The notes under the pieces were generated by a model. The model was not told where the DNA came from, searched no databases, and worked only from the letters and a program-made list of their open reading frames with translations. Position numbers and translations under genes: made by a program. From a virus, in the IMG/VR virus record IMGVR_UViG_3300001679_000076, positions 1 to 22,733 of that record: 22,733 nucleotides of DNA, one strand, 5' to 3'. Each line of letters starts with the position of its first letter. Position 1 is the stretch's first letter. This document shows positions 346-10,530 of this stretch, piece by piece.

Positions 346-2019
346 ATGTCAAAACGAACAGCCGAAGAACTCCTTGAGCGGTTCTCCTATTTGCAAGGCA
401 GGAGAAGCAACTTTGAGAGTTCGTGGCAAGACATAAGCGATTTGATGATGCCCTACCGGGGGGATATTTCTACAAACAAATCTCCCGGCAGTCGTAGGGT
501 CATTGGGGTCTTTGACTCCACAGCAATGCAAGCCGCCGATACGTTTGTGAACTTCCTGAAGGGAGCGATCATACCTAGCGGTACGGACTGGGTTCGCTTG
601 AGGGCAAAGCCTCCCTATGACAATGACGTAACAATCAGGCAGGTCTTGGATAGGATTGCTAATAAAATACTAGGAGCCTTGTCTGACTCTAACTTCTATA
701 CCGAAGCCGCTGGTTTTCTTAGGGACTTTGCGGTACTGGGTAACGGAACCCTTCACGTTCGAGAGGACACTCCCAAACTAGGAGCGCAAGGGTCTACCTT
801 CGGCGGTTTGATTTTCGAGGCTATCCCTATTGCCCATATGTGGTGGCAGATAGGTCACAAGGGGAAACCCTTCTTCATGGTGCGCCGAATACAGATGACA
901 GCCATCGACGCATATCGTTTCTTCGATGGAAAGGCTGGCGCTGACGTAGATGCAAATCTGAAAATGAAGCAGCCAATGGAGCAGGTTAGTTTTCTTCATT
1001 TCGTCTATGAAAACGAAAACACGATTCCAAAGGCTGGCATTAAAACAGCGGAAGACAAGCCTTGGGTATCTGTCTACATTACTGGTGTAGAAGATAGCGT
1101 ATCTGGTAGCCCTGAAGTTATTCGAGAGGGTGGCTTTGATTTCTGTCCCTATGTCATTGCTAGGTGGATGGTAGTAGACGGAGAAGAGTATGGTCGTGGA
1201 CGTGGACACTTGGCTAGGCCTGACGCAATGGGAATCAATGAACTGCGTAGGCAGATTCTCATAGCGGCTGGCAAGGACTTGAATCCACCGCTCATGGTCG
1301 AACACGACACGATGGTAGAACTAGACATCGCCCCCAATGGACTGATGATAACTAGACCCGCAGTTAAGCAGGGGCCGCAATACCTCAAGAGCGGAACCAA
1401 CTACCAAGTTGCAGACGCTATGGCTAAAGAAGACAGGGAGCAGATCCTCAAGGCTTTCCTTGGAGATTTGCTAACGGAGCCAGAGTCTCAACCTAGAAGC
1501 GCGGAGGAAAGCCGTCAGAGGCAATCGAGGGCACTGCAAAGATTGAGTGCTACTGCCGACATTGTGAACTACGAGTTCCTGGACCCATTGATGGATGGCA
1601 TTATTGAAGTCATGCGAAGGTCTGGCTATCTTCCAGAGTTTGATATGCTAGCGGCTGAGTTGCCAGAAGCAGAACTGGAGATCTCATACCAGTCGCCATT
1701 CTTCACGGCTCAGAAGGCTTCGGGCAGTATGCGAGTACAGGCGTTCCTGGAGAGGCGTTTGGCTTTGTATCAGGCAACACAGAACCCTGTGTTCCTGGAC
1801 GACATTTCTCCAGATCAGGTTGCTAGATATGACGCAATGGTTAGTGACATTCCGGCAATGATACTACGCACTGCTGAAGAGGTTGAAGCGTTACGTAGAG
1901 CCAGAGCAGAGCAAATGGAGCAACAACAAATGGCACAAGCGCAGCAACAAGCGCAGCAAGCGGCTGCACAACAAGGAGCCGCCCCACAGGAAATACCTCC
2001 TGAAGCACAAGGAGTTTAA
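346..2019 (+). CDS. Portal protein (T7 gp8-like head-tail connector)
   Basis: A 557-residue protein of the T7-type head-to-tail connector family. It would form the dodecameric ring at one capsid vertex through which DNA is packaged and leaves, and to which the tail tube attaches. The N-terminus has the usual helical start with Trp27 and a following Met-Pro (MMPYRG), then a FDSTAMQAADTF-like helix and a GTDW loop at about 85-88. The AVLGNGTLHV segment near 130 is also typical of the family. The last 40 residues are a Gln/Ala-rich tail, common in portals and probably flexible. Length fits the family (T7 gp8 is 536 residues). The ATG at 346 is three bases after the upstream stop. The stop overlaps the next start by one base (TAATG). 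Scaffold and capsid follow, as expected. Confidence 0.93.
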   Translation: MSKRTAEELLERFSYLQGRRSNFESSWQDISDLMMPYRGDISTNKSPGSRRVIGVFDSTAMQAADTFVNFLKGAIIPSGTDWVRLRAKPPYDNDVTIRQVLDRIANKILGALSDSNFYTEAAGFLRDFAVLGNGTLHVREDTPKLGAQGSTFGGLIFEAIPIAHMWWQIGHKGKPFFMVRRIQMTAIDAYRFFDGKAGADVDANLKMKQPMEQVSFLHFVYENENTIPKAGIKTAEDKPWVSVYITGVEDSVSGSPEVIREGGFDFCPYVIARWMVVDGEEYGRGRGHLARPDAMGINELRRQILIAAGKDLNPPLMVEHDTMVELDIAPNGLMITRPAVKQGPQYLKSGTNYQVADAMAKEDREQILKAFLGDLLTEPESQPRSAEESRQRQSRALQRLSATADIVNYEFLDPLMDGIIEVMRRSGYLPEFDMLAAELPEAELEISYQSPFFTAQKASGSMRVQAFLERRLALYQATQNPVFLDDISPDQVARYDAMVSDIPAMILRTAEEVEALRRARAEQMEQQQMAQAQQQAQQAAAQQGAAPQEIPPEAQGV

Positions 2020-3108: not shown

Positions 3109-3270
3109 ATGCCGTGGAAAGCAGTTGGCAAGAAGGTCCACAAACTAAAATCCTCCGGTGCCCTAGGCCCGGTGGTTAGCACACACTCCTCACCAGATGC
3201 CGCAAAGAGGAAAGTAAGGGCACTCTACGCATCAGAGAGAAGGACTGGAACTGGCCGGAGGTATGCCTAA
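3109..3270 (+). CDS. 53-residue basic protein with RALYASE motif
   Basis: A short gene with a textbook start: AAGGAGG at 3098-3104 and ATG at 3109. The 53-residue product begins MPWKAVGKK, has a Gly/Pro/Val middle, and carries 'DAAKRKVRALYASE' at about residues 30-43. This resembles a short ending, 'A..q.RALYa.E', seen in many small phage proteins that begin MPW. The function of those proteins is unknown to me. The TAA at 3268-3270 overlaps the ATG of the following HNH-type gene by one base, so the pair is probably co-translated. The strong ribosome site, tight spacing and family-like motif support it as a real gene despite its size. Confidence 0.75.
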   Translation: MPWKAVGKKVHKLKSSGALGPVVSTHSSPDAAKRKVRALYASERRTGTGRRYA

Positions 3271-3551
3271 TGGCAACTAAGAAGAAAGCAAATGGTGTTC
3301 GCAAGAGGCCCAAGAAGCCGGGGAAAAAGAGAAACTACCCTAGGGAGACTGCTCTCTTCCATTCCAAGCGTTCAGCCAAAGACGCTCGTAACAATTCTAA
3401 TAAGGCTAGAAGACGAGCGGGTCTAAAGCCTGGAGATGCCCGTGAGGTCGATCATATTGTGCCACAAAGCAGAGGTGGCTCAAACAAACCGTCCAACGTA
3501 AGGATTGTTACAAAGCGAAGAAATAGGACTAGGGGCAATAAGCGTTCTTGA
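3270..3551 (+). CDS. Mini HNH-motif protein
   Basis: A 93-residue very basic protein. Residues 59-91 carry an HNH-type signature: Asp61-His62 in 'EVDHIVPQSRGGSNKPSNV', Asn76, and Asn85 in 'RRNRTRGNK'. HNH proteins are metal-dependent nucleases with a beta-beta-alpha fold. Small basic versions like this occur in virion-gene regions of podoviruses and are usually annotated as HNH endonucleases. No Cys is present, so the usual zinc ribbon is absent, and the first 55 residues are a Lys/Arg-rich tail. Whether it cuts DNA is open; a DNA-binding or virion role is possible. It overlaps the previous gene by one base. The structured capsid leader follows its stop. Confidence 0.75.
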   Translation: MATKKKANGVRKRPKKPGKKRNYPRETALFHSKRSAKDARNNSNKARRRAGLKPGDAREVDHIVPQSRGGSNKPSNVRIVTKRRNRTRGNKRS

Positions 3552-3600
3552 CATTGTTTAGGTTTTAGTGATTACTAATACCTGTTCGACAACCCAGATC

Positions 3601-3673
3601 GCTCCGGGCCGGACTGACGCTAGGAAAGACTAGCGACTAATGGGTGCCGTAAGCACCAAGAGAGGCCCGGAGC
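3601..3673 (+). ncRNA. Predicted three-way-junction RNA in the capsid leader
   Basis: The sequence folds by eye into a closed three-helix junction. P1 is a perfect 10-bp stem, gctccgggcc (3601-3610) with ggcccggagc (3664-3673). P2 is cgctag (3618-3623) with ctagcg (3630-3635) and a GAAAGA loop. P3 is ggtgc (3643-3647) with gcacc (3653-3657) and a CGUAA loop. The joining strands are GGACUGA, ACUAAUG and AAGAGA, all purine-rich and of similar length (6-7 nt). It is not followed by a U-run, so it is not an ordinary terminator. It lacks the hammerhead core (CUGANGA...GAAA), tRNA arms and group I intron core elements. Function is unknown; position points to control of capsid expression or to RNA processing. 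Confidence 0.55.
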
Positions 3674-3680
3674 CGGACAA

Positions 3681-3715
3681 CCTCTCGATAGAGTAGAAAA
3701 ATACTAATCGAGAGG
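3681..3715 (+). promoter_or_regulatory. Hairpin overlapping the capsid gene ribosome binding site
   Basis: The stem cctctcgat (3681-3689) pairs perfectly with atcgagagg (3707-3715). After a small AG/A internal loop, agta (3692-3695) pairs with tact (3702-3705) around a GAAAAA loop. The Shine-Dalgarno of the capsid gene, AGGAG at 3713-3717, lies seven bases before the ATG at 3725, and its first three bases are inside the 3' arm. Folding would therefore partly hide the site. Translational control, or cutting by an RNase III-like enzyme as at T7 intercistronic hairpins, are both plausible. No U-run follows. Confidence 0.5.
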
Positions 3716-3724
3716 AGTGGCCTC

Positions 3725-5074
3725 ATGGCTATCTCTGTTCCCTCACCGGGTAATTTTGCCGGGGCTTTTCCAGAAGGTCCATATTCCAGTGATCCTCAAT
3801 CTGGATACATGAATCTGTTCAAGCGAGCCTATACCGATCTGGTAAGACTTGCTGTTCAGCAAACAGATAGCATTCTTCAGGATACTTGTATCAACGAGTC
3901 GATCCGTGGAGAAGTGCTTTCGTTTGATCGCTACCTCGCTTTGAGTGCTACCGATCTTGAGAGTCGCAAGCGTGGTCAGGCATACGGAGACTTCATTGAA
4001 GAATCTGGTGGTACCGTCACTCAATCAAAACTTCAGTACAAGACGACGCAGACTGAACGCCGTTTGGTCAACCCGTCCTTTGTTGATTACGCTGAGTTGT
4101 TTGATCCCCGTGACAAGTATGCGTTGATGAAGGCGGTTCGTCCTGACGGCCAGTTCCTCAAGAACGTGACTGCTTTGTTCAATCGCAAAAAGGACGCTAC
4201 GATTCTTGCTGCGATCAAGGCTGCTGTAACCATCGATCAAAGTCCCTTCAAGACCGCTACGACCCTGATGAACTTTGCGGCTATTAACTCTGATGGTGAG
4301 TTTGAACCAGATACAGAAGATGCTGCCGGGGATGCGGTTGCTGCTGCGGCTACTGGTACTGCTGTAGAAGGTTTCTACATGAAGGATAATGTTCCTCCAA
4401 GTGCGGTTCCTGCTACAACTACTCAAGCATCAGGCTTTACTGAAAGTCTTGGTGGTTCTGTATTCACTAATGCTGCTACAATTGCAGGAGCGTATGACGC
4501 TGTTGCTGGAGGCAGCACGGATGCTGCTAGCAAAACTATTGCACCAACCACTCTGGGTGTAAATACTCTGATCCAGGCTAGGAAAATACTGCACAAGAAA
4601 AACGCAATCCAGCCAGGAGATCGTGTTTACTGTGTTTGCCATCCCATCCAGTTTTACCAAATGATGGAAGACGCAGATGACAGTCGCATGACCAGTATTG
4701 ATTTCAACGATGGCAAGCCGTTGGTCAATGGTTCTCCCATGAACTTCATGGGATTCGAGTTCCGTGTTACTACTGAGGTTACTGAGATTATTCAGGGTAT
4801 TGGTACAACTCCCGATGTTTTGGGTGGTATTGCAGTTGGGGCTTCGACTGGTTATGCAATGACCGCTCTTGCGGGTGGATTCGCTGGTACTGGTCACGAA
4901 GTTTACTTCTACACAGATTCAGCAATGGTGTATGGACAAGCAGACGAAGTAGTCGTGCGAATGGATGAGATTCCTGATCGTGGATACTGTTTGCAACTCT
5001 ACCACCAGTTGGGTCTTGGTGCGCTTCGCTTGGACGGCGATAAAATCCTCATCAAGCGATGTCTTGACAACTAA
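3725..5074 (+). CDS. Major capsid protein (HK97 fold)
   Basis: A 449-residue protein expected to build the icosahedral shell. It follows scaffold as in T7. The N-terminal third has the typical long helix and a 'YKTTQTERRLVNPSFVDYAELFDPRDKYALMKAV' type segment (read as two parts near residues 103-138), followed by a helix around 'RKKDATILAAIKAA'. These are familiar in podovirus capsid proteins. 'DRVYCVCHPIQFYQMM' near residue 300 and the C-terminal 'RMDEIPDRGYCLQLYHQLG' fit the P-domain and A-domain. Residues about 168-268 form an unusually long Ala/Thr/Gly-rich segment. Codon use differs from neighbours, with more CTT/TTG and few CTA Leu codons, as expected for a highly expressed gene. Its leader has two predicted RNA structures and a GAGAGGAG ribosome site. 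Confidence 0.9.
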   Translation: MAISVPSPGNFAGAFPEGPYSSDPQSGYMNLFKRAYTDLVRLAVQQTDSILQDTCINESIRGEVLSFDRYLALSATDLESRKRGQAYGDFIEESGGTVTQSKLQYKTTQTERRLVNPSFVDYAELFDPRDKYALMKAVRPDGQFLKNVTALFNRKKDATILAAIKAAVTIDQSPFKTATTLMNFAAINSDGEFEPDTEDAAGDAVAAAATGTAVEGFYMKDNVPPSAVPATTTQASGFTESLGGSVFTNAATIAGAYDAVAGGSTDAASKTIAPTTLGVNTLIQARKILHKKNAIQPGDRVYCVCHPIQFYQMMEDADDSRMTSIDFNDGKPLVNGSPMNFMGFEFRVTTEVTEIIQGIGTTPDVLGGIAVGASTGYAMTALAGGFAGTGHEVYFYTDSAMVYGQADEVVVRMDEIPDRGYCLQLYHQLGLGALRLDGDKILIKRCLDN

Positions 5075-6493: not shown

Positions 6494-7621
6494 ATGGCAA
6501 CCAGAACACACACCGTCACCATGAGTGGGGATTTTGCTGGCAACTATGAAGGTGCCGCACTCAACCTGAAGATATATGGAACCACCTCCCTTGGCAGGGT
6601 TCGAGCCAAGAAGAGTGCCTCTGGATATTTCGCATTCAACATCGACACTGCTGCATCTCAGATAGATAAGTTCATCCCCGCTGAGTCCGTGATTGTCGAT
6701 TTCAATGCTGCAACCGTTTTGCAGAACATGGCTGGCTCCGCAGTATCAGATGGCGATACCATCAACTTCTGGAACAACGATGCTGCCGACAATGAAGCCA
6801 CTGCCCCATCTGGAGATGAGCCAGAATGGATGTCTTCAGGTGACAATATCACCAACTCTCCAACAGTTGACTTCCTGACCAATGGAGGGGATGAGCGTTT
6901 TGTCCTGGGCACTGCCCCATCATTTGCTTCTGGAGAAGAATTCTCAATCGCTATTGTGGTTGACAATGGAAACACCAACGCCAATAGACCCTTTTTAGGT
7001 AGCGATGTCGGTGCAGGAGCAAATGCATCAATATATGGAAATGGCTCAAACAGAAACATGAAGGTTCAAGATGAGTCTGGGAATTCTTTTGAGTCAACTT
7101 CTGGTGGTGGCGATAACTTCAAAAACAAAGATATTCATGTAATGGTAAGAAATTCTAGTGATCGTGTGTCTTGCTACCGTCGAGGCGAAGAAATCATTTC
7201 AGGTGAATCTCTAACTGGCACATTCTCCCCCTCGATCATTGGGAATGCGAGAGAGAGCAGTTCTTGGGGTGGTCAAAAAGCAAATATCACCAGGGTCATA
7301 GTTGCAGATGAGGAGTGGAGTGATGCTTCAAGAGAAAATGTTGAAGCGTGGTTAGCGTGGGAATACGATCTGCAAAACGGCAGTAATTCATACCTTCCTT
7401 CCTCCCATGTTGGATACCGATCAGATCCAAGGACTTCAAAGGCACCAGCATTCTCCTCAGACATTGATCTGTCTGCTCTTTCGGCGGATACCTGGAGTTC
7501 TTATTTCGCCCCAACCGGGGCACCGGGAACCCCGTGGGATGTAGATGGACCGATAGCCATCTATCCCACCAAAGACTACAAGGCTGGAACCATCACCATC
7601 GAACTTGAGTTTGAAGTCTGA
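6494..7621 (+). CDS. LamG/concanavalin-like domain protein, probable virion adhesin
   Basis: A 375-residue protein whose central part looks like a laminin-G/concanavalin A-like beta sandwich. The evidence is 'GEEFSIAIVVDNG' near 151, 'DIHVMVRNSSDRVSCYRRGE' near 213, and a closing 'ITRVIVADEEWSDASRENVE' then 'AWLAWEYDL' near 265-293. That ending matches the usual LamG close (an I..v.vy...ls..e...ie.yL..ky.l pattern). Such domains bind sugars or proteins on surfaces and occur in phage tail and head-fibre proteins. It starts with a strong AGGGAGG four bases before ATG. Its TGA overlaps the next ATG by one base, coupling it to the tail tube gene. The gene is poor in CTAG and richer in CTG and C-ending codons than its neighbours, which may mean separate acquisition. 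Confidence 0.68.
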   Translation: MATRTHTVTMSGDFAGNYEGAALNLKIYGTTSLGRVRAKKSASGYFAFNIDTAASQIDKFIPAESVIVDFNAATVLQNMAGSAVSDGDTINFWNNDAADNEATAPSGDEPEWMSSGDNITNSPTVDFLTNGGDERFVLGTAPSFASGEEFSIAIVVDNGNTNANRPFLGSDVGAGANASIYGNGSNRNMKVQDESGNSFESTSGGGDNFKNKDIHVMVRNSSDRVSCYRRGEEIISGESLTGTFSPSIIGNARESSSWGGQKANITRVIVADEEWSDASRENVEAWLAWEYDLQNGSNSYLPSSHVGYRSDPRTSKAPAFSSDIDLSALSADTWSSYFAPTGAPGTPWDVDGPIAIYPTKDYKAGTITIELEFEV

Positions 7622-10530
7622 TGGCTATCTCCCTTGTTGCTCCAGGAAACGGCGATACCCCATCGATTGCCCTGAGCAGTAATGGCTCCACAATAACTCT
7701 TGGTCAGCAGAATTGTGCCGTTGATGATCTCTTCATAGTTTTCGGTGGAAACAAAAGCAGCAACACTAGCACCTCAATCGCAGTTGTCGATCCCGGTGTT
7801 GGGACACCAAGCACCCCTACAGAGTGGGATCTTCCAAGTTTTCCCTATAACTATGGTGCTGCTGCTGGAGCAACTCAGAACAGAGTTGCTGTTGCGTGGT
7901 GGTTCAGAATCACGGCAGCAGACATCGACACTGCTGCTGGCGATCTTGTTGAGGTTGAGATAACGCCACCACCGAGTCGGTGTCAATACGGGATCAATGT
8001 TTGGCGAGGAGTAGGCACAACAGACTTTGATGGTGCCCCCGCTAGTAACACAATGGTCGGTCTACAGATTCAAGTGGATAACGCATCACTAGGAAGAACA
8101 TTCCTTTGGACTGATTCTGATACCATCATATCAAGCACTCCCTGGTCGGATACTTTCTTCGACAGTTCCATGACCGTGCTTGCGATGGCTATCAACGATA
8201 GATCCAACTGGAATGCTCCAAATCAACTGGCTTTCCCGTCCGGCTGGACTACCTGTATTTATGGAGTCGGAAGCACCCTTGCTTCTAACGAAATAAGCAG
8301 CAACGGGCAAAGTTCCGTGATGCTTTATTCGCAATATGCGAACTTTGCTGATGCTGATGCCACTAGCGATCCAGGCATGGCGACCCCTCTTGATCTCGCA
8401 GATACAAGCGGCAATACGACTACCACAAGGCAGTTGACCCTGTGGATGGCGTTCAAGGAGGACGGGGCTAACGCCTATACATTCACAAAAACAGACAGTT
8501 CAACTGCTTCAGATACCCTTACGCTAACCAAGGCTACTACAGAAACGAGAACCGATACTGCCACCACTAGCGATACTCTATCGGCTAGTAAGTCTGCTAC
8601 AGAAACCAATACGGATTCCTCTACAGCCTCAGACACACTGACAACTCAACGGGCAGCAACGGAATCCAATACAGACAGCAGCACAGCCTCAGACACGCTA
8701 ACTGCTACCAAAGCAATCAGTCTATCGGTTACTGACTCAGCAACGAGTTCCGATATCTTGAGTGCAACTAAATCAAAAGACATAACAAAGACAGACAGCA
8801 GCACTGCGGCAGATGCGCTAACAGCAGTAAAGGCTGGCTCAATATCCATAACGGATTCTGCAACTGCCTCAGATGTTTATACGGAGAGCGGAACCAGTGA
8901 ACTAACCGAAACAGATAGCGTTACTGCTGCTGATACTCTAGTAGTAACCAAAACAGCAATAGAGACAAATACAGATACCGCTACAGCCTCCGATGGTCTT
9001 GTTGCTACCAAAACCGCTGCATTCACGGAAACAGACTCTTCGACTGCCTCAGATACACTCACGGCAGCAAAAGGCGTAACTCTATCTATTACCGATTCTG
9101 CTACAGCCTCAGATGTGTATGACGCTTCAAAAACCGTTGTCTTGAAGGAAAGCAGCACTTCGACCACCTCAGACACCCTAACAATTCAGAAGGACTCAAC
9201 GCTATCCGTTACGGATGTCACAACTTCCTCAGATATCCTAGTTACCGCTAGGTCTGCAACGACAACCATTACGGACAGTTCCACTACTAGCGATACGCTC
9301 TCAGTAAACAAGGCTAGTGCTGTAACGCTAACAGACAGTTCGACTGCTAGTGACGAGTTAGATGCCAACACTGCTGGATCGTCCACCTTTACGGAGACAG
9401 ACTCCTCCACAACTAGCGACACGCTCTTAGCAACCAAGTCAGTTGCTCTAACCTTGACAGATAGTGTTACTGCCTCAGATACCTATATAGACTCCGAAGC
9501 GACTACGATCACAGAGACCGACTCTGCTACGGCAGCGGATACTCTGTCGGCAATCAAGTCAGTTGCTCTGACATTCACAGATTCAGCCACCACCTCAGAC
9601 ACCGTAGCAGCCTCAAGAGCATTGATATTCACGGTAGAAGACAGTTCTTCGACTACAGATACACTTCTAAAAACCAGAGCGGCTAATCTAGCATTCACCG
9701 ATTCTTCGACAACCAGCGATCAACTAGACAGAATGCTAGAAGCCCTGATTTCCCTTACAGATTCTAGCAGTACAGGTGATACTCTAACTGCAACAGGCCC
9801 GGTGGTAACAGAAATATCGGTTACGATCCCTGGAATTGGATCGGTTTCAGCAGAACTTTTAACGGAGGAAGAAGCCTTGGCAGTCATAGATATTTGGAAT
9901 ACCGCATTAACTACATTGGGGATTACAGCGGTCACTTCCACCACAGACAGTTCGCCCCAACAACTACTTCTAACAAATGTTTATCCGTTATTCAAAAGGC
10001 AGTTCCTAGCGGATCACCTTTGGAATGGAGCCAAGAAAACAAAGGCGCTAACCGCTCTAAAGGACAATGCCGGAGATGCGGTTACTCCTCCTAGTCGGTG
10101 GACGTATGCGTTTGACCTTCCCGATGACGTTCTACGTGTTTGGCGATTGAATGGCCTAGAGAACCAGCCAGATTACATTGGTGGGTTCTCTAGCAATATG
10201 TGGGAGATCGAAGTCATCGTTACTGACGAGGGGGAAGTAGAAGAAGCCCTAACAAGGTCTTTGTGTACCGACGAATCTACTGCCACGATTGAGTATGTCT
10301 TTGACGTTGGAGATGACAACATAGGACTGCTTGGACCTCTGACCCAACACGCTCTAGGCAGGGCTTTAGCAGTATATGTAGCCCAAAACTTTGGCAAAAA
10401 TACCACTGAGATCGCTCAACTAGAAGCACTTGCTAAAGAAGCATTGCTAGCGGCTAAGGGTGTAGACGGACAAGAGGGTTCTCCTCAGATATTCTCCCCG
10501 ACAAGCCTCCTGGGGGTTAGGTATATCTAA
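7621..10530 (+). CDS. Tail tubular protein A (gp11-like) fused to a repeat array and N-terminal beta domain
   Basis: A 969-residue three-part protein. Residues 1-290 are beta-rich, with 'RVAVAWWFRITAADIDTAAG' near 90 and 'YGINVWRGVG' near 124. This resembles a beta module common in phage and bacterial surface proteins, in which a GW loop is followed by a y.r.A strand and an y.GV strand. Residues 291-732 are 22 tandem Thr/Ser/Asp repeats of 20 residues. Residues 735-969 match the tail tubular protein A family: 'AVIDIWNTALTTLG', 'FLADHLWNGAKKTKAL', 'RWTYAFDLPDDVLRVWRLNG' and a helical end 'GRALAVYVAQNFGKN'. T7 gp11 is only 196 residues and forms a 12-subunit ring between portal and nozzle. The start overlaps the upstream stop by one base with no strong ribosome site, so translation is probably coupled. 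The fusion suggests the ring also carries projecting arms. Confidence 0.85.
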   Translation: MAISLVAPGNGDTPSIALSSNGSTITLGQQNCAVDDLFIVFGGNKSSNTSTSIAVVDPGVGTPSTPTEWDLPSFPYNYGAAAGATQNRVAVAWWFRITAADIDTAAGDLVEVEITPPPSRCQYGINVWRGVGTTDFDGAPASNTMVGLQIQVDNASLGRTFLWTDSDTIISSTPWSDTFFDSSMTVLAMAINDRSNWNAPNQLAFPSGWTTCIYGVGSTLASNEISSNGQSSVMLYSQYANFADADATSDPGMATPLDLADTSGNTTTTRQLTLWMAFKEDGANAYTFTKTDSSTASDTLTLTKATTETRTDTATTSDTLSASKSATETNTDSSTASDTLTTQRAATESNTDSSTASDTLTATKAISLSVTDSATSSDILSATKSKDITKTDSSTAADALTAVKAGSISITDSATASDVYTESGTSELTETDSVTAADTLVVTKTAIETNTDTATASDGLVATKTAAFTETDSSTASDTLTAAKGVTLSITDSATASDVYDASKTVVLKESSTSTTSDTLTIQKDSTLSVTDVTTSSDILVTARSATTTITDSSTTSDTLSVNKASAVTLTDSSTASDELDANTAGSSTFTETDSSTTSDTLLATKSVALTLTDSVTASDTYIDSEATTITETDSATAADTLSAIKSVALTFTDSATTSDTVAASRALIFTVEDSSSTTDTLLKTRAANLAFTDSSTTSDQLDRMLEALISLTDSSSTGDTLTATGPVVTEISVTIPGIGSVSAELLTEEEALAVIDIWNTALTTLGITAVTSTTDSSPQQLLLTNVYPLFKRQFLADHLWNGAKKTKALTALKDNAGDAVTPPSRWTYAFDLPDDVLRVWRLNGLENQPDYIGGFSSNMWEIEVIVTDEGEVEEALTRSLCTDESTATIEYVFDVGDDNIGLLGPLTQHALGRALAVYVAQNFGKNTTEIAQLEALAKEALLAAKGVDGQEGSPQIFSPTSLLGVRYI
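8491..9816 (+). repeat. 22 in-frame tandem repeats of 20 residues (60 bp) in the tail tube A protein
   Basis: Each unit follows TDSSTASDTLTATKAxxxTx. The TD at positions 1-2 and SD (or AD, TD, GD) at 7-8 are almost invariant, and a Lys or Arg is common near position 14. Unit 15 is 22 residues long because of a two-residue insertion; all others are 20. Unit 12 has lost the leading TD, and unit 20 has ED. The 60-bp units differ widely in codon choice, so DNA identity is lower than protein identity and the array is not freshly expanded. No Cys is present. A regular beta-rich stalk or fibre is likely. Confidence 0.93.

Follow-up and report, generated by a model that had tools for sequence, protein, structure and literature searches.

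Autogenous translational repression by structural or replication proteins of phages is known, the examples including the coat-protein operators of the RNA phages, gp32 of T4 and the scaffold of P22. The T4 cases have been reviewed (PMC3014915). Structured cis-acting RNAs are also known from marine phages, in the form of the glutamine riboswitches of phages Melnitz and Mosig and the manA and wcaG RNAs of cyanophages, and these lie near a tmRNA gene or near metabolic genes (PMC9004378, PMC2864571). The HTVC010P-type phages have been described as being among the most abundant marine viruses, and in the paper on the isolate Skadi, which has an HTVC010P-type genome, no riboswitch was found (PMC10504331). 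The RNA analysed here precedes the major capsid gene in more than 100 phage contigs and in cultivated HTVC010P-type Pelagibacter phages, and is probably a previously undescribed control element for the making of capsid protein.

The capsid locus

The window, by which is meant the whole stretch of DNA analysed, is a 22.7-kb (22,733 nt) IMG/VR virus record, IMGVR_UViG_3300001679_000076, from a marine phage. The element spans 3584-3686 (103 nt, or about 100 bases) and the leader continues to the capsid AUG at 3725, the coordinates of its parts being collected in the table. It occupies a gap of 173 nt (3552-3724) between an HNH ORF and the capsid ORF, which is the largest non-coding gap in the window; the preliminary description dealt with a 73-mer at 3601-3673 inside it. 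A gene for a PF12236-type head-tail connector is found upstream. The small HNH endonuclease ORF (3270-3551, with its stop at 3551) lies directly 5' of the element in the window clade and is not annotated before the capsid gene in HTVC010P. Elsewhere in the window a tail or fibre protein is probably encoded by a 969-aa ORF (7621-10530) in which Ser/Thr/Asp-rich repeats (TDSSTASDTLTA-like) occur many times in tandem.

Table. Features of the capsid leader, with window positions
Feature	Position	Strand	Basis or remark
TTGACA, -35-like box, overlapping the HNH stop codon	3548..3553	+	36 nt upstream of the start of hairpin A
Hairpin A, GUUCG-[ACAA]-CCC...GGG-[C]-CGGAC, 4x1 internal loop ACAA/C	3584..3614	+	RNAalifold on MAFFT-only alignment
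Internal-loop strand of A, ACAA facing C3609	3589..3592	+	concerted change with B loop
Three-way junction, P1 (3601-3610/3664-3673) enclosing P2 and P3	3601..3673	+	competing fold; thermodynamically preferred in the window
Hairpin P2 (6-bp helix of the preliminary description), conserved loop GAAAGA	3618..3635	+	covariation
Hairpin P3 (5-bp helix of the preliminary description)	3643..3657	+	covariation
Hairpin B, GAGAGG-[C]-CCG(GAGC)CGG-[ACAA]-CCUCUC, loop of A mirrored	3660..3686	+	covariation
Internal-loop strand of B, ACAA facing C3666	3677..3680	+	concerted change with A loop
Hairpin S, CCUCUCGAU...AUCGAGAGG	3681..3715	+	B-arm pairing counts; arm-swap test strong in window clade
Shine-Dalgarno AGGAG of capsid gene	3713..3717	+	sequence
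Major capsid protein gene	3725..5074	+	Pfam PF19821 Phage_capsid_2, E 8e-29; phrog_3437 major head protein

The conserved fold

The preliminary description proposed that the 73-mer forms a compact three-way junction, and the pairing itself is exactly as claimed: three perfect helices of 10 bp (P1), 6 bp (P2, 3618-3623/3630-3635) and 5 bp (P3, 3643-3647/3653-3657), connected by the joining strands GGACUGA, ACUAAUG and AAGAGA of 7, 7 and 6 nt. The predicted energy of the 73-mer is -39.2 kcal/mol as against -21.5 +/- 3.0 in dinucleotide shuffles (z -5.8), and none of 200 shuffles was as stable. Comparison with relatives has shown, however, that the fold kept by evolution is not this junction but a series of four hairpins, namely A, P2, P3 and B. 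That relatives keep this longer helix set could not have been seen from the window by itself.

An alignment of 22 sequences made by MAFFT only is treated as the main evidence, because model-fitted alignments lean towards structure. From this alignment RNAalifold returned exactly A/P2/P3/B, with two-sided changes in 15 of the 25 pairs, including four of the five outer pairs of hairpin A. The model-fitted alignments gave two-sided changes in 20 and 24 of 27 pairs, with a covariation score that was reached by none of 500 shuffles, and in the first MAFFT alignment 13 pairs changed on both sides and 92.6% of cells could pair. Among the HTVC010P-type phages the outer helix of A was intact in all 46 distinct cores despite the presence of 10 different 5' arms. 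Counting against the four hairpins, RNAalifold preferred other helices, which were without covariation, when it was given the cultivated HTVC010P-type sequences alone. Besides the internal loops of A and B, the RNA has a conserved GAAAGA loop and a CCAAG strand.

Of the three helices first described, P2 and P3 covary and P1 stays at the level of chance, with 68% of cells paired and 2 two-sided pairs compared to 3.0 in shuffles. P1 was tried as a conserved helix in two registers and rejected, there being no covariation in either. It is a competitor of the conserved hairpins, as the 10-bp helix is incompatible with both A and B, and it is predicted mainly in the window clade and its nearest kin, where it may represent a competing conformer. 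One alternative is that the P1-P2-P3 junction is the working fold and that the repetition of CCGG-rich strands yields A and B as by-products. The junction does dominate the predicted ensembles of the window, of group G2 and of contig L262, and P1, perfect over its 10 bp, does not vary among the eight contigs of the window clade; but the chance-level covariation of P1, its near absence from the ensembles predicted for most members of G3 and for several others, and the strong covariation of A, P2, P3 and B make this a distinctly improbable reading.

Relatives and distribution

The window clade consists of eight contigs, the window included, in which the core (3584-3686) shows two differences at most, i.e. 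98-100% identity over 103 nt. The capsid genes of the other members have 68-73% nucleotide identity to that of the window, and pairs from different lineages are 60-78% identical over the 100 nt upstream of the core; for the DNA flanking the element in the different lineages the identity is 60-75%. Such near-identity shows strong constraint on the sequence and, being without variation, says nothing on structure. Taken together with the covarying homologues that much more distant phages have in front of their capsid genes, it bears out the original proposal that this is a structured RNA under selection and linked to the capsid gene.

Scanning with the portal protein yielded 51 contigs. In about 30 of them the capsid gene lay within reach, its product having about 31-44% amino-acid identity, and in these a diverged but clearly related RNA was present at the same place. 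The first covariance model was built from 11 sequences of one group and found matches in untrained outlier groups and in several cultivated Pelagibacter phages, for most of them with E values of 1e-5 to 1e-2. A further 150 loci, 80 of HTVC010P type and 70 others, were added through capsid profiles, and exactly one match was obtained in 57 of the former and 68 of the latter, always on the sense strand and always before the capsid gene. The distance from match to start codon was 24-72 nt (164 matches with an assigned start codon), apart from one group for which the codon assigned by script was a downstream one. With the refined model, E values of about 1e-10 (below 1e-9) were reached for HTVC010P, HTVC034P and Skadi, all of them outside the training set, and of about 2e-11 for Lederberg, which was in it. 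The window element (3584-3686) scores 89.8 bits and has all the features by which the family is defined, namely A, P2, P3 and B, the loops ACAA/C and ACAA/C, and a position before the capsid gene.

Wherever the RNA was found, whole genomes included, it was present as a single copy per genome or contig on the + strand, with no match away from the capsid leader in about 1 Mb searched. A gapped DNA pattern returned 89 stretches, nearly all due to chance, which were reused as a negative control, and in these 0.6 Mb model R2 gave only three weak matches (E 0.28), none of them convincing. An exact pattern had no match in 84,980 bacterial and archaeal genomes, and the INPHARED phages gave none by tblastn with two capsids or by blastn with one element. 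The models missed the HTVC028P clade, as they did most of the other outgroup phages to which they were applied. Leaders of the HTVC028P clade (L147, L207, L208, L213, L220, L238) contain A-like or B-like hairpins, some with GAAA/C, and P2 seems to have been lost there.

On the 5' side of the RNA contig L010 (junction at 4363-4465) is identical to the window and on the 3' side to L001, reflecting either module exchange at a conserved element or an assembly chimera, and L002 and L004 share upstream DNA and have different capsid genes. These cases could be taken to mean that the element is a boundary at the level of DNA, such as a recombination joint for the exchange of head-gene modules, or else an artefact of misjoined metagenome contigs. 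The element is, however, present in cultivated complete genomes and has undergone compensatory changes of the RNA type over deep divergence, so that as a sole explanation the boundary is already contradicted by covariation and is most improbable. Exchange at the element is plausible as a consequence of its conservation.

Concerted loops in hairpins A and B

One asymmetric 4x1 internal loop, four bases opposite one, recurs in hairpins A and B at mirrored positions. In the alignments the loops are ANAA/C in both hairpins, ANAC/C in both, or GUAG/U in both (the RUAG/U class), and are never mixed. The two belong to one class in every cleanly aligned case, the exceptions being two rows where the B loop faces an A and a few rows in which the A loop is misaligned. 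Inspection by eye gave AUAG/U in A and GUAG/U in B for L232, and GUAG/U in both for L234 and L237. On the capsid tree the RUAG/U class must have arisen in both loops in at least two lineages, or else have been transferred between them. As the same loop changes in concert in A and B, both probably bind one common partner or each other, and the twin loops would then serve a single recognition event.

It may be that this partner is the capsid protein, the scaffold or another head protein, making the leader an RNA operator for autogenous control or an assembly signal that couples synthesis to assembly. The strict linkage to the capsid gene, the concerted loop changes and the presence of twin identical loops, which would suit a dimeric or repeated protein, are in keeping with such an operator, as is the need for a partner common to phages of different hosts. 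Against it, no co-varying protein residues were identified. The idea overlaps with the explanation preferred here, from which it differs mainly in naming the partner, and is possible though doubtful.

Paired hairpins of this kind were also seen in the capsid leaders of some cultivated model phages. The Vibrio phages VP2, phiVC8 and 23E28.1 (L155, L321, L322) have an A-type and a B-type hairpin, both GUAG/U, about 50 and 90 nt upstream of the capsid gene, and Vibrio phage 1.182.O and Yersinia phage YeP5 have AUAC/C or AAAC/C hairpin pairs; a same-class pair occurred in about 0.5% of shuffled leaders or fewer. None of these five leaders was detected by the covariance models and their hairpins are regarded as leads only to membership of the family. 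The capsid leader of phiVC8 has a putative terminator and a putative promoter annotated within it. Leaders of ZP6, CKB-S2 and Manatee Spring had single or ambiguous hairpins and were left out of the counts. In Alteromonas phage ZP6 (L154) two tandem A-type hairpins with GUAG facing U can be made out by eye at about -100 to -30 relative to the capsid gene, one of them being AAAUUCAG-GUAG-CCACUAGG-U-CUGAGUUU and the second similar.

Possible pairing of hairpin B with the ribosome-binding site

In B the CCUCUC of the 3' arm doubles as the 5' arm of a further predicted hairpin, S, whose 3' arm holds most of the Shine-Dalgarno sequence. In the window S has nine pairs and covers most of the ribosome-binding site GAGAGGAG. 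Across the family the 3' arm of B can pair into positions -24 to -1 before the start codon in 53 of 64 distinct leaders, compared to 17.8 expected from shuffles. As nearly all the arms are pyrimidine-rich and all the ribosome-binding sites purine-rich, arms were swapped between clades. The window clade, G5 and G6 showed clear specificity in this test, which was weak for G3 and for the SAR11 phages, ambiguous for G4 and negative for G2. S was missing in about one sixth of leaders, including the RUAG/U ones. Judged by complementarity, mutual exclusion of B and S appears well supported in the window and, within the family, in only some clades. The pairing of the B arm with the ribosome-binding site suggests an on/off switch for capsid translation, and among the functions listed in the preliminary description that of translation regulator is the best supported, with the proviso that the competition on which it would depend is well supported in some clades only.

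The minimum free energy of the whole leader in the window was calculated as -61.3 with P1 and S and -45.4 with B forced. The difference of about 16 kcal/mol exceeds the usual reach of a small ligand at equilibrium and a switch would thus need a kinetic or protein-driven step; on these predicted energies, departure from the P1 and S state would call for co-transcriptional folding or a bound protein. Since the energies in the window favour P1 and S over any B fold, the P1 junction may be the masked state in the window clade.

Promoter and transcript start

An exact TTGACA is situated 35-37 nt before A in 23 distinct upstream sequences from several lineages outside the HTVC010P type, the -10 hexamers downstream of it being weak, and two further clades have TTTACG or TTGCG-type boxes instead. 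From this spacing transcription is predicted to start on the first base of hairpin A or right beside it, and the element would then make up the whole 5' leader in TTGACA-bearing phages. In HTVC010P-type leaders the TTGACA box is absent and no promoter is evident, and the last part of the preceding small ORF extends into the element. Five HTVC010P-type sequences (L187, L214, L223, L209, L210) have a AACCCCTT...AAGGGGTT-type hairpin just upstream of A, possibly a terminator isolating the capsid transcript.

The predicted start of transcription immediately at a stem, and the fact that capsid protein is needed in many copies, would be in accord with a stabiliser at the 5' end, or a site of RNase processing, by which capsid mRNA becomes more abundant. 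A stabiliser would have no need, however, of a conserved GAAAGA loop, a CCAAG strand or concerted internal loops, and this explanation is considered unlikely. The predicted start at A also invites the suggestion that the leader acts on RNA polymerase in the manner of the HK022 put RNA, a phage precedent for direct action on the enzyme (PMC9378689), with the two hairpins conferring resistance to pausing and termination through the structural genes. Two similar loop-bearing hairpins, conserved across hosts and placed before structural genes, would fit. On the other hand, put has been described for early genes and here there is one site before the capsid gene, in the HTVC010P type the previous ORF extends into the element and the same promoter is lacking, and the complementarity of the B arm to the ribosome-binding site is left unexplained. 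Action of the put type is accordingly thought rather improbable.

Proposed mechanism

The explanation that is on balance considered likely is that the element is a cis-regulatory 5' leader of the capsid mRNA, representing an undescribed RNA family, in which a partner of A and B and the masking by S together determine translation. Transcription would probably begin on the first base of A or right beside it, as the -35-like box indicates, and the leader folds, as covariation shows, into A, P2, P3 and B. The loops of A and B (ANAA opposite C, or the concerted variants) would together form the recognition site for one partner, for which a phage protein, a host protein and a small ligand are all candidates. 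The CCUCUC of the 3' arm of B is complementary both to the 5' arm of B and to the GAGAGG of the ribosome-binding site and could pair with either. With A and B formed or bound, the ribosome-binding site would be free and capsid protein would be made; with B open, a state that the P1 junction would assist in the window clade, S would mask the site and translation would be low. The capsid gene would in this way be put under the control of the leader, the likely purpose being the timing or dosing of capsid synthesis relative to that of other head genes.

A broader proposal can be put forward tentatively, namely that a capsid control RNA is present in a large part of the marine T7-like podoviruses, the HTVC010P-type pelagiphages among them, and that the twin loops act as a composite sensor, of a head protein or of a ligand reflecting the state of infection, which directly gates capsid translation. 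It may extend to phages of the Vibrio VP2/phiVC8 type and other cultivated phages, whose capsid leaders carry paired loops. That phages of different hosts have this RNA implies that they share a partner for it. An RNA conserved at the capsid gene from deep-sea to cultivated SAR11 phages would be a rare instance of RNA-level control of virion production in tailed phages, and the RNA provides a marker for this capsid lineage in metatranscriptomes.

Comparison with known systems

Searches of Rfam 15 (4227 families) with the window element and group representatives gave no match at gathering or relaxed thresholds, and a tRNA search at the element was likewise negative. No match to the catalytic core of the hammerhead or of the other self-cleaving ribozyme classes in Rfam was obtained at the element, and there is no U run directly 3' of either B or S in the window, on which ground an intrinsic terminator was rejected. 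The view that the RNA is not a terminator, tRNA or hammerhead has therefore held, and no evidence was found for the self-cleaving or packaging roles that had also been entertained. A related phage contig, L122, contains a type II hammerhead ribozyme (1011-1079, minus strand; 55 bits, above the Rfam gathering score) upstream of its portal gene, so the same Rfam search was able to detect ribozymes. No description of the RNA was found among the open-access papers searched.

We know of no RNA operator of twin-loop architecture for a tailed-phage capsid gene. The 5' leader does have a conserved structured domain of the sensor kind, as is characteristic of riboswitches, and resembles riboswitches and protein-responsive leaders that mask the Shine-Dalgarno sequence in having a conserved 5' domain followed by a potential alternative helix over the ribosome-binding site, and in its conserved unpaired residues. 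It differs from them in having no Rfam match, in standing before a capsid gene and in carrying two copies of one 4x1 loop in flanking hairpins. The put RNA of HK022, from lambdoid phage antitermination, is like it a cis-acting phage RNA structured near the start of the transcript, but serves early genes via RNA polymerase (PMC9378689), whereas here a single structural gene is concerned and a possible ribosome-binding-site switch is overlapped. The marine phage riboswitches and cyanophage RNAs are comparable as structured cis RNAs and differ in their gene context, the present RNA being linked to the capsid gene and without an Rfam match. With the autogenous phage repressors it may share the logic of a phage protein binding its own leader, the partner here being putative. 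By these comparisons the RNA would constitute a new family among the cis-regulatory leaders, with an unusual twin-loop design and at an unusual gene.
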